From Candidatus Methanomethylophilaceae archaeon (GTDB lineage Archaea; Thermoplasmatota; Thermoplasmata; Methanomassiliicoccales; Methanomethylophilaceae), in assembly GCA_017935945.1 (NCBI GenBank), contig JAGBGN010000134.1, forward strand, positions 1 through 54,504: a stretch of DNA of 54,504 nt, written 5' to 3'. Positions within the stretch are counted from its first letter, which is position 1; the number at the start of each line of letters is the position of its first letter. Positions 12,862 through 38,682 of this stretch are shown here, piece by piece. The notes beneath the pieces are model-generated. The model was not told the DNA's origin, did not search any database, and saw nothing but the letters and a program-made list of their open reading frames with translations. A program made the translations under genes and the position numbers.

Positions 12862-13395
12862 TCAGATGAAGTGGACGTTCCCCCTGATATCGTCCAGGGT
12901 CACCTTGTTGCAGATGGAGAGGACATGCTCGACGTTCTCCTCGTCGGTGGCGGCGATCCCCCCGTCCAGCATCGAGGCCATGATGTCCACATCGTGTGCC
13001 CCGTAGTAGCTGGCCGCGACACACATGTGGGCGACGAGTCCTGCCAGCACGATACCGTCGCATCCCATGTCCTTCAATATGGATTCTAGTCCCGTACCGT
13101 TGAAGGCATTCATGGCCGTCTTGTGTAGGACAGGTTCACCATCCCTGGGTTCTCTCAGGCCCGGGACAAGTTCATCGCCATCCTCCACTTCCCTGATGCA
13201 CGATCCGAGTCCGTCGAACATTATGTAGATCACCGGATTCCCTGTGGACCTGAACAGGTCTATCGCCTGATTGACGGTGTCCACCTTCCCCATCATTGAG
13301 ACCTTGAGGCCATCGGTCGTCTCGATGAACTTCTTCTGGATGTCCACAAGCACCAATGCCAGTTTTCTCTTCGGGAACTCGACGTACTCGTTCAT
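12862..13395 (-). CDS. Isochorismatase-family cysteine hydrolase (copy 1)
   Basis: A 177-aa protein of the isochorismatase/nicotinamidase superfamily. The catalytic triad is visible as D18 (VLVDIQKKF), K92 (VLHKTAMNAF) and C125 (GLVAHMCVAAS), with the usual cis-peptide VAHMC context. The reaction is hydrolysis of an amide, imide or vinyl ether; the exact substrate cannot be read. A second copy lies at 38149-38682 with the same triad. A 19-nt palindrome overlaps the expected transcription start, just upstream of the ATG, and resembles palindromes before the second copy and before the FecCD remnant. Co-regulation with that paralogue is likely. Confidence 0.9.
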   Translation of the reverse strand: MNEYVEFPKRKLALVLVDIQKKFIETTDGLKVSMMGKVDTVNQAIDLFRSTGNPVIYIMFDGLGSCIREVEDGDELVPGLREPRDGEPVLHKTAMNAFNGTGLESILKDMGCDGIVLAGLVAHMCVAASYYGAHDVDIMASMLDGGIAATDEENVEHVLSICNKVTLDDIRGNVHFI

Positions 13396-13397
13396 AA

Positions 13398-13416
13398 GTA
13401 GGATGTATTATCCAAC
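13398..13416 (-). promoter_or_regulatory. 19-bp palindromic operator, copy A
   Basis: GTAGGATGTATTATCCAAC is an imperfect palindrome (arms GTNGGAT / ATCCNAC) immediately upstream of the cysteine hydrolase start. A TATA-like CATATATC lies a few bases further upstream on the minus strand, so a bound protein would block initiation. Copies B and C are at 25944-25962 and 38112-38130. Confidence 0.55.
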
Positions 13417-13429
13417 AGATATATGCTGA

Positions 13430-25560: not shown

Positions 25561-25905
25561 GGGACGGATACATCCGCCGATGGCCAATCCCGCCTCGGTC
25601 AACACGCCCATCAGTGCTCTGGGAAGGCGACCTTCTCAGATGAAGTAGTCGTTCAGAGGATCTGAAATCTCTCCGACCATATGCGATATGAGTGTTTGGA
25701 TCGATTCGATGAAACCGATCTTCACAGGTCCGAGACCAATGGCAGCCACGATGGAAACGACCATCAACATGGCACACGATACTATGAATGCAACCTTGTG
25801 GTATGACGAGCGTCTGTACGTCTTAACGACTCCGCTGTCATCCTTGCCTTCCATCCAGATTTTCGTTGCTTGCTCGACCGTCGGTTCCAGATGCTGTCTC
25901 GTCAA
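25560..25905 (-). pseudogene. Remnant of a FecCD-family iron-complex ABC permease
   Basis: The N-terminal 89 codons include a cytoplasmic leader, one membrane helix (VAFIVSCAMLMVVSIVAAIG) and GPVKIGFIESIQTL, typical of FecCD permeases. After an in-frame TGA where tryptophan would be expected, the same frame continues RLPRALMGVLTEAGLAIGG, the conserved loop and helix of this family, and then breaks off. Only TTG is available as a start at 25905. It is truncated, nonsense-interrupted and start-impaired, hence a pseudogene. A 19-bp palindrome covers its TATA box, so it was once a regulated iron or cofactor importer. Confidence 0.65.
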
Positions 25906-25943: not shown

Positions 25944-25962
25944 ATTGGATATATAATCCAAT
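25944..25962 (-). promoter_or_regulatory. 19-bp palindromic operator, copy B, overlapping a TATA box
   Basis: ATTGGATATATAATCCAAT is a near-perfect palindrome whose AT-rich centre (ATATATAA) is itself the probable TATA box of the FecCD remnant. It matches copies A (13398-13416) and C (38112-38130). Confidence 0.6.
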
Positions 25963-26573: not shown

Positions 26574-28492
26574 TCACCTGCGGTATCTCAGGGCACGTGT
26601 GGAGTTCAGCACGGCGACTATCATCACGCCCACATCGGCGATGATGGCAAGCCACATGTTCACGAAACCGACCGCCGATAGTCCGAGGAACAGGAACTTG
26701 ACCAGAAGGGTCCCGATGATGTTCTCGCGGATGATCCCCATGGTCTTGCGGGAGATGCCCATGGCGGTTGCGACCTTGGTGGGGTCATCGTCCATGATGA
26801 CGATGTCCGAAGCCTCTATTGCTACATCGGAACCGATTGCCCCCATGGTTATTCCTATATCGGATCTGACGAGGGATGGGGCGTCGTTGATACCGTCCCC
26901 GACGAACGCCACCTTGCCATCGGTCTCTTCGAGTATCCTCTCGAGGTGCTCGAGCTTATCTCCCGGCAGGAGCTGGCTGTGGACCTCGTCCAGGCCGATC
27001 TCCCCTGCGACCTTACGGGCCACTGCTTCGGAATCCCCGGTCAGCATGACGGTCCTCTTAATCCCTGCCGCCTTCAGGTCCCTTATGGCCTGAGCGGATT
27101 GGTCCTTGACGACATCCGAGATGGTGATGCATCCTGCGTACCTGTGGTCGATGGCCACATGGACGGTGGTCCCTGTGGAAGGCCCCTCCTCGAACTGAAG
27201 TCCGAGCATCTCCATGAGTCTCCTGTTCCCCACCGCGACGGGTGTGCCGTCCACCTTCGCCATTACGCCTCTGCCTGCGATGTCCTCGATGTCGGTGACC
27301 CTTGAACGGTCGATATCGGCTCTATGGGCATGGACCAGGCTTGCTGCTATCGGGTGGGGTGATGATGATTCCGCAATGGTGGCCATCTCGATGAGCTTCT
27401 CGCGGGGAACATCGTCGGTGATGACATCGGTGACCTCGAACACCCCCTGGGTCAAGGTGCCGGTCTTGTCGAACACCACCGTCTCCACATCCGATAGCAT
27501 CTCGAGGTAGTTCGATCCCTTGATGAGGACACCTTCCCTGCTGGCACCACCTAGTCCGGCAAAGAAACCGAGCGGGATGCTCAACACGAGTGCACAGGGC
27601 AGCTGATGACCAGGAACGTCAGGGCGCGGTATATCCACTCCTCGTATGTGGTCCCCAGGATCTGGATGTCTGTCAAGAAGTACAACATGGTGGGCACCGC
27701 GGACAGCAGCAGTGCGCATACCACCACGAAGGGGGTGTACACCTTGGCGAACCTGGTTATGAACGCCTCGGATTCGGATTTCCTGCTGCTTGCGTTCTCG
27801 ACCATGTCGAGGATCTTGGAGACCGTGGATTCCCCGAAGGCCTTGCTGGTCCTTATCTTGAGAACCCCGGAAAGGTTGACGCAACCGCTGAGGACCTCGT
27901 CTCCGGCTATGACGTCGCGGGGGATGCTCTCGCCAGTGAGTGCGGATGTGTTGAGAGAGGACGATCCTTCGATTACGGTCCCATCGATGGGGATCCTGTC
28001 GCCGGGTCTGACGATTATGATGCTGCCGATTCCGACCTCATCCGGATCGACCTCGACCAGTTCTCCGTCCTCCTCGATGTAGGCTGTATCGGGGCGGATC
28101 TCCAGCAGCTTGGATATGCTCGTTCTGCTGCTGTCGACGGCGATGGACTGGAAGAGCTCCCCGACCTGATAGAATATCATGACGGCAACCGCTTCGTCGT
28201 AATCTCCTGTGTACGTGACACCGAGCGCCATGGCCCCTATGGTGGCGATCGCCATCAGGAAATTCTCGTCAAGCGCCTGTCCATTGGCTATGCCCTTGGC
28301 AGCCTTTCTCAGGACATCGTATCCGATTATCAGATAGGGGACCAGGTAGCAGACGAACAGGACGTACTTCTCGATGGATCCATCGACCGGCAGGAGATCG
28401 AATGCCGAACATATTGCGAGAAATATCGTCAGGATGGATGCTATGACGATCTTTTTCAGCATCCTCTTCTGCTTCTTCCTGAGTTGGACCAC
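26574..28492 (-). pseudogene. P1B-type heavy-metal ATPase (CadA/ZntA-like), frameshifted at the CPC motif
   Basis: Two frames together encode a full P1B-ATPase of about 640 aa. The first (28492 to about 27595) holds four membrane segments, the actuator loop NTSALTGESIPRD and ends TFLVISCP. The second (from about 27595) resumes with CALVLSIPLGFFAGLGG, then DKTGTLTQG, the SSPHP histidine, GDGINDAPSLV and the last helices. A missing T changes the intramembrane CPC motif and closes the frame at TGA nine codons later. The cause may be a real mutation, a sequencing error or, less likely, a recoding event. The N-terminal metal-binding domain is a separate protein encoded just upstream. Specificity is probably Zn/Cd/Pb. 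Confidence 0.88.
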
Positions 28493-38111: not shown

Positions 38112-38130
38112 GTTGGTTATATAATCCAAC
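38112..38130 (+). promoter_or_regulatory. 19-bp palindromic operator, copy C, overlapping a TATA box
   Basis: GTTGGTTATATAATCCAAC is a near-perfect palindrome with TTATATAA at its centre, placed about 26 nt before the cysteine hydrolase start at 38149. The same motif lies before the FecCD remnant and before the paralogous hydrolase. Confidence 0.65.
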
Positions 38131-38148
38131 TAATCATGACATATGCAT

Positions 38149-38682
38149 ATGGTGGAGTACAATCTGACCGGTAGGGAGATGGCCCTGGTGGTCATCGACA
38201 TGCAGAAGCGTTACAGGATCGATTCGGTCACACAGGACCAGATGGATTGCTACATCGGCAGGATAAACGCACTGGCCTCCGATTTCAGGGACCATGGCCG
38301 TCCTGTCGTCTTCGTACGCTTCATAGGTGGGGAGGAATGCCACCCGTACACCGGTGAGGGTAACGGGGAGGATTTCATGGAAGGTCTGGATGTCAGGGAC
38401 ACGGACATCATCGTCGACAAGGGATACATGAACGGGTACCGTGACACCCTCCTCGCGGAGGTCCTCCACGACCGCGGTTGTGACTGCATTCTCCTGGCGG
38501 GAACGGTCACACAGTACTGCGTCATGTCGACGTACTTCGCATCGTTCGACCATGGTCTGAGTCCGTATCTTGCGAAGGGATGCTGCATATCCACCAAGGA
38601 GGAGTGCAACGAGGCCGCATGGAAGGTGTGCAAGGCGCTGACATCCGAGAGGGTGAAGCTGTATCTGGAGAAAGGGGAATGA
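38149..38682 (+). CDS. Isochorismatase-family cysteine hydrolase (copy 2)
   Basis: A 177-aa hydrolase of the isochorismatase/nicotinamidase superfamily. The triad is D17 (VVIDMQKRY), K91 (IIVDKGYMNGY) and C124 (GTVTQYCVMSTY). Residues between strands 2 and 3 include GGEECHPYTGEGNG, a Cys/His-containing loop unlike copy 1. It shares the overall plan and operator with copy 1 (12862-13395), but motif wording differs, so the substrates may differ. The ATG at 38149 is chosen because it lies about 26 nt after the TATA box within the palindrome; 38143 is an alternative. A bidirectional hairpin terminator follows. Confidence 0.9.
   Translation: MVEYNLTGREMALVVIDMQKRYRIDSVTQDQMDCYIGRINALASDFRDHGRPVVFVRFIGGEECHPYTGEGNGEDFMEGLDVRDTDIIVDKGYMNGYRDTLLAEVLHDRGCDCILLAGTVTQYCVMSTYFASFDHGLSPYLAKGCCISTKEECNEAAWKVCKALTSERVKLYLEKGE

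Follow-up and report, generated by a model that had tools for sequence, protein, structure and literature searches.

A promoter palindrome of a cobalamin/corrinoid regulon in Methanomassiliicoccales and DUF4443 winged-helix proteins as its most likely regulators

Three palindromes and the genes beside them

The window, a 54,504 nucleotide contig from a Candidatus Methanomethylophilaceae archaeon analysed at its full length, contains three copies of a 19 bp palindrome. The first, TTGGATAATACATCCTA (13398..13416, minus strand), has a 17 bp core (13399-13415; TAGGATGTATTATCCAA) with one mismatch to the genome-wide consensus TTGGAT-N5-ATCCAA, and is placed between a TATA-like element (13417-13425) and an ATG at 13395; directly downstream is a gene (12862..13395, minus strand) that encodes a 177 residue isochorismatase-family hydrolase (PF00857, E 1.1e-21; NCBIfam matches were sub-threshold only). 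The second, TTGGATTATATATCCAA (25944..25962, minus strand), is perfect, with a TATA-like centre and a core at 25945 (TTGGATATATAATCCAA) that has no mismatches. Beside it is an 89 aa ORF (25636..25905, minus strand) that retains only the N-terminal part of a FecCD (BtuC-type) permease; this remnant alone has no Pfam match, and tblastn aligns it (E 1.6e-15) to the N-terminal end of a FecCD permease that the host genome encodes on contig C40, after an operator-headed binding-protein gene. The third copy, TTGGTTATATAATCCAA (38112..38130, plus strand; core at 38113, TTGGTTATATAATCCAA, one mismatch), contains a TATA-like box, TTATATAA (38117-38124), and lies upstream of a second isochorismatase-family hydrolase gene (179 aa, 38143..38682, plus strand; PF00857, E 4.3e-26). 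A sequence-only reading of the window had proposed these three palindromes, their overlap with promoters, the isochorismatase-type identity of the two outer genes and the permease remnant, and each of these proposals is borne out.

A relative of the 179 residue hydrolase in genome G019, 51% identical, has TTGGACATATAATCCAA upstream. Isochorismatase relatives are common in the genus, and a preceding site was seen for only a few (G019, probably G024 and G009). Membership of the hydrolases is real in the host genome but patchy in the genus, which makes them peripheral members of the regulon. Within the explanation developed below, which we hold as a whole with good confidence, the three copies would put both isochorismatase-family hydrolases, along with what is left of a BtuC-type permease, under the predicted control.

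Distribution of the palindrome and content of the regulon

Computed across the 1.57 Mb host genome, TTGGAT-N5-ATCCAA occurs in 13 perfect copies, against none for a reversed-pattern control, and in 127 copies against 24 when up to two mismatches are allowed; the TATA-type form TTGGNTATATAATCCAA gives 9 matches per strand and 0 in the control. At up to three mismatches the TATA-type form is found 3 times in the window, where 0.16 are expected and none of 100 shuffles reaches 3. The loose core TTGGAT-N5-ATCCAA, allowed the same three mismatches, shows no enrichment within the window itself (32 vs 26), and the proof therefore rests on the genome-wide counts. Host-genome sites with at most one mismatch are mostly intergenic and close to a likely start codon; the palindrome is thus neither at chance frequency nor mostly outside promoters, the two outcomes that would have spoken against a regulatory role. 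Perfect copies are present in 125 of 150 related genomes, usually 1-19 per genome with controls near zero, while family f5 of the order has almost none and the count is 0 or 1 in further families of the class. The symmetrised consensus of 165 distinct perfect sites is RTTGGATG-WWW-CATCCAAY, and since the R...Y flanks are also preferred among these sites, 19 bp, the length first read from the window, is the right one.

Downstream of the host-genome sites are genes for three CobN-type chelatases, a ChlI-like AAA protein, three NifH-NifD fusions, CbiK, a CbiA-like synthase and a ferredoxin, as well as many binding-protein/FecCD/ATPase transporters of BtuFCD type. Relatives add CbiT, CobA, CbiX, CbiA, a precorrin-2 dehydrogenase-like protein, CobT, CbiC, CbiJ, CbiD, CbiM and a B12-dependent ribonucleotide reductase (NrdJ), together with a site-headed transport operon that encodes a secreted beta-propeller protein, DUF4430, CbiQ and CbiO. 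The palindrome thus precedes multiple cobalamin transport and synthesis genes in several genomes, the arrangement of an archaeal cobalamin regulon of CblR/CBL-box type. Because its targets are genes of B12 uptake and synthesis, the regulon is one of cobalamin/corrinoid uptake and synthesis, not of iron. Of the earlier proposal of one regulon for iron or cofactor handling, the single regulon and the cofactor survive and the iron does not, the FecCD permeases sitting with B12 genes.

Several loci are worth recording in their own right. In G027 a B12-dependent ribonucleotide reductase gene follows a perfect site (L183:1248-3476), and a perfect host-genome site at L024:1120 has a small membrane protein gene on one side and gar1-tfb, encoding the basal transcription factor TFB, on the other. 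Dockerin type I domains occur in or next to operator-controlled BtuF-like binding proteins (L027:4114-5442, L031:2-901, L032:3326-4660), a pairing unusual for gut archaea. The NifH-NifD fusion genes (L025:4773-6863, L029:2806-4902, L032:8016-10184) and the CobN genes in L026 and L028 suggest, as three of each under one operator, an uncharacterised tetrapyrrole-processing or salvage pathway. A separate iron regulon is marked across Methanomassiliicoccales by the conserved TTTAGGT-N3-CCTAAA, a canonical DtxR-type palindrome in dtxR-feoB promoters throughout the order (L071-L120). A divergent FUR-family protein and the cobalt transporter CbiM form a conserved gene pair in several families (L131-L150), and the protein is probably a cobalt-responsive Fur.

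A DUF4443 winged-helix protein beside the sites

A Pfam scan of genes neighbouring the host-genome sites found no adjacent transcription factor. Clustering of site-flanking genes from many genomes yielded one recurring helix-turn-helix protein of 194 residues, with a winged helix at its N-terminus and DUF4443 (PF14544) at its C-terminus; the conserved winged-helix regulator that had been envisaged from the window alone thus has a candidate. Two others were set aside: a 147 aa zinc-ribbon protein near two sites (L101/L040), with weak Pfam matches and few site-adjacent relatives, and an Lrp/AsnC-like gene (L113), a single case with the site 289 bp away. DUF4443 adjoins a site in five loci of different genomes, usually with metK on one side and the beta-propeller/CbiQ/CbiO operon on the other, and is found in 138 of the 150 relatives. 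Of 54 genomes sampled from the order, six have DUF4443 but no perfect site; in two f5 genomes of this kind, copies with one or two mismatches lie exactly between DUF4443 and the beta-propeller/CbiQ/CbiO operon.

Nearly all Methanomassiliicoccales genomes hold two DUF4443 paralogs, and the two host-genome matches to PF14544 exceed the curated cut-off of the family (G000:C104, E 1.3e-32; G000:C41, E 9.6e-29). Paralog A follows metK, the SAM synthetase gene, a synteny constant in nearly every genome read (L257-L273); the host copy has 194 aa and lies at about 26960-27544 of G000:C104. Paralog B, of about 320 residues with a DUF2111-like tail as judged by reading its sequence, is divergent from genes resembling atwA and mcrC. 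Immediately ahead of the start codon, nearly all of the two dozen B promoters read have inverted repeats of GGATG, such as ATGGATGGATTATATATCCATCC and ATGGATGAATGATACATCCAT; in one or two of them (G038, G042) the repeats are degenerate. The repeat just before B in the host, ATGGATGTAACATTCATCCAT, is the sole perfect ATGGATG-N7-CATCCAT in that genome; the pattern likewise marks B in g11 genomes but is found elsewhere in many others, and was rejected as a general marker of B. With two paralogs per genome, we infer which of them belongs to which site: A is the likelier of the two to bind TTGGAT-N5-ATCCAA, because in lineages with a single copy it is the short, A-type protein that accompanies the canonical site.

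As modelled by AlphaFold (pLDDT 92.7), the host A protein consists of a wHTH and the DUF4443 domain. Its best PDB match is PH0730 of Pyrococcus horikoshii (2p8t; Z 19.0, rmsd 2.2 over 168 residues, 27% identity), the only solved DUF4443 homolog found, which shares both domains but is annotated as hypothetical and has no function or operator assigned in the literature searched; there we met PH0730 only as a family name within a transcription-factor list. DUF4443 was found in none of the papers searched, and a search for the CBL-box was likewise empty. Next, on the N-terminal domain, come winged helices of MarR type and of CggR, among them operator-bound CggR, in a fold search that mostly probed the winged helix. 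The DNA-binding domain of CggR, the central glycolytic genes regulator (7oyk/8r3g), is of the same winged-helix type by HMM and by fold, but the C-terminal domain of the present protein is DUF4443, whereas the effector domain of CggR binds sugar, and its operator also differs. In the model, a near-invariant GEGSxR leads into the predicted DNA-reading (recognition) helix.

Outside the order, a scan of the genome collection found DUF4443 in Hadesarchaea, Micrarchaeota, Altiarchaeales and Nitrososphaeria. A perfect palindrome lies 1.6-1.8 kb from the start of the DUF4443 gene in six of seven Hadesarchaea loci, the seventh having one-mismatch palindromes, and the genomes of those six have exactly one perfect site each, genome-wide. 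This site heads a small operon that faces DUF4443 and encodes, by appearance, a membrane protein and a DUF4430-like protein. In the Micrarchaeota locus the perfect site is in the promoter of the DUF4443 gene itself. By eye, DUF4443 is flanked there (L331:8291-10925) by a secreted alpha/alpha-barrel-like protein and a DUF4430-like protein, a pair that recalls the two domains of transcobalamin. Among other Thermoplasmatota, DUF4443 adjoins a site in G141, G374 and G164; in single-copy lineages the order at L385 and L379 is DUF4443, site, transporter operon, and at L386 DUF4443 is beside a site. In G251 the site heads btuF-btuC-btuD, and the same-strand run downstream has cobS-cobY-DUF4443-cobT (names beyond Pfam assigned by reading the sequences). 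Three genomes (G144, G145, G178) have no site near the DUF4443 gene, nor has G157 near its truncated gene. When the sequences were dinucleotide-shuffled 300 times, no locus gained a perfect site near its DUF4443 gene more than once. In a co-occurrence test drawn from 295 genomes of the phylum, with the order left out of the counts, the site was found in 9 of 10 DUF4443-bearing and 45 of 230 DUF4443-free genomes (Fisher p = 7e-6, uncorrected for shared ancestry).

Predicted mechanism, competing explanations and significance

We propose that RTTGGATG-WWW-CATCCAAY serves as operator for an archaeal regulon of cobalamin/corrinoid (and related metallo-tetrapyrrole) genes, and that a DUF4443 winged-helix protein, in the host paralog A, most likely binds operator DNA such as TTGGATGATACATCCAA, presumably as a dimer. 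Seated past the TATA element but ahead of the start codon, or covering the TATA itself, the protein would block the basal transcription machinery, so that ample corrinoid would keep the regulon repressed and a shortage would open it. The observed positions of the sites, which either follow a TATA-like element and precede the start codon or coincide with the TATA, suit a repressor that blocks initiation. The reading of the motif as a corrinoid-regulon operator, most likely bound by a corrinoid-responsive DUF4443 repressor, is one in which we have considerable confidence. Three steps in it we infer: that the protein physically binds the site, that it represses and does not activate, and that its effector is a corrinoid, as opposed to cobalt or SAM.

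The most serious alternative concerns the last of these steps and is compatible with the same operator and regulator: the signal may instead be cobalt ion, SAM or the methylation state, or another tetrapyrrole (F430, haem-like). At almost all loci read, the gene for DUF4443-A comes after metK, a constancy by which a SAM-related role is conceivable; cbiM is among the targets, and the CobN, NifHD and CbiK targets suit several tetrapyrroles. Yet the targets common to the lineages are those of corrinoid uptake (BtuFCD, CbiQ/O ECF, DUF4430) and B12 synthesis, and the B12-dependent NrdJ is a further target. We regard a different signal as less likely than a corrinoid, though far from negligible.

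It is also conceivable, but unlikely, that DUF4443 is a passenger or target linked to corrinoid transport while another, unlinked factor binds the motif. In its favour, the case for DUF4443 is one of guilt by association, there is the metK synteny, and in several genomes gene and sites are unlinked. Against it, DUF4443 has a predicted DNA-binding winged helix, it is linked to the site in several lineages of archaea whose genomes have one site each, and its paralog promoters have related repeats; and no other HTH gene recurs next to sites in the surveyed loci, save the lineage-limited FUR.

That FUR gene suggests a third explanation, in which a Co/Ni-type Fur-family regulator co-operonic with cbiM binds the motif, and divergent FUR homologs do adjoin cbiM; several f6 genomes have perfect sites within the fur-cbiM unit or at it. 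It is very improbable: searches with PF01475 gave no match in the host genome (G000) or in most of its genus, which have sites all the same, and the fur-cbiM loci of other families are without the site; Fur, restricted to some lineages, looks like a target of the regulon instead of its general regulator. The DtxR-type regulator suggested by the sequence-only reading, here an iron regulon under a DtxR/IdeR-type repressor, can be given hardly any weight: such regulons share with the present one a promoter-overlapping palindrome, a winged-helix regulator and transporter targets (here of the FecCD/periplasmic-binding-protein kind), and DtxR is found in nearly all relatives, but dtxR-feoB has its own, different palindrome order-wide and none of TTGGAT-N5-ATCCAA in the loci read, and the genes regulated are B12 enzymes, so that DtxR is not the regulator of this motif.

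An archaeal 'CBL-box' was reportedly put forward by Rodionov et al. in 2003. For Pyrococcus furiosus, a 2023 study lists a predicted cobalamin regulon under 'CblR (unknown)' (PMC10746257). Like the Pyrococcus CblR regulon and the CBL-box, to which it is likened here by description, ours is a comparative-genomics regulon of archaeal cobalamin genes; unlike them, the present regulon was traced in Methanomassiliicoccales, Hadarchaeota and Micrarchaeota, takes in a broader range of targets and comes with a named regulator family. In bacteria the same kinds of genes are controlled by the cobalamin riboswitch (RF00174), whereas the element described here is a palindrome in promoter DNA; an Rfam covariance-model scan at gathering threshold found no such riboswitch in eight regulon-bearing sources, only a tRNA and 5S rRNA.

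DUF4443 is, to judge from sequence, most likely the archaeal B12 regulator, and as a candidate it would fill the kind of gap left by the 'unknown' cobalamin regulator (PMC10746257). The analysis yields a family of proteins that can be tested, one structure of which has been solved though not explained (2p8t), together with a precise operator and a list of targets. More broadly, and here we lean only modestly in favour, DUF4443 proteins may be widespread archaeal protein-based sensors of corrinoid (vitamin B12) that repress transcription, the archaeal counterpart of bacterial riboswitches, with the second paralog of methanogens, which has a DUF2111-like tail and is divergent from atwA/mcrC-like genes, coupling the switch to methanogenesis. 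Methanomassiliicoccales, methanogens that inhabit guts and wetlands, produce their methane from methylated compounds via corrinoid-dependent methyltransferases; the proposed switch would therefore govern the cofactor supply for that metabolism, in gut methanogens of medical and agricultural interest.
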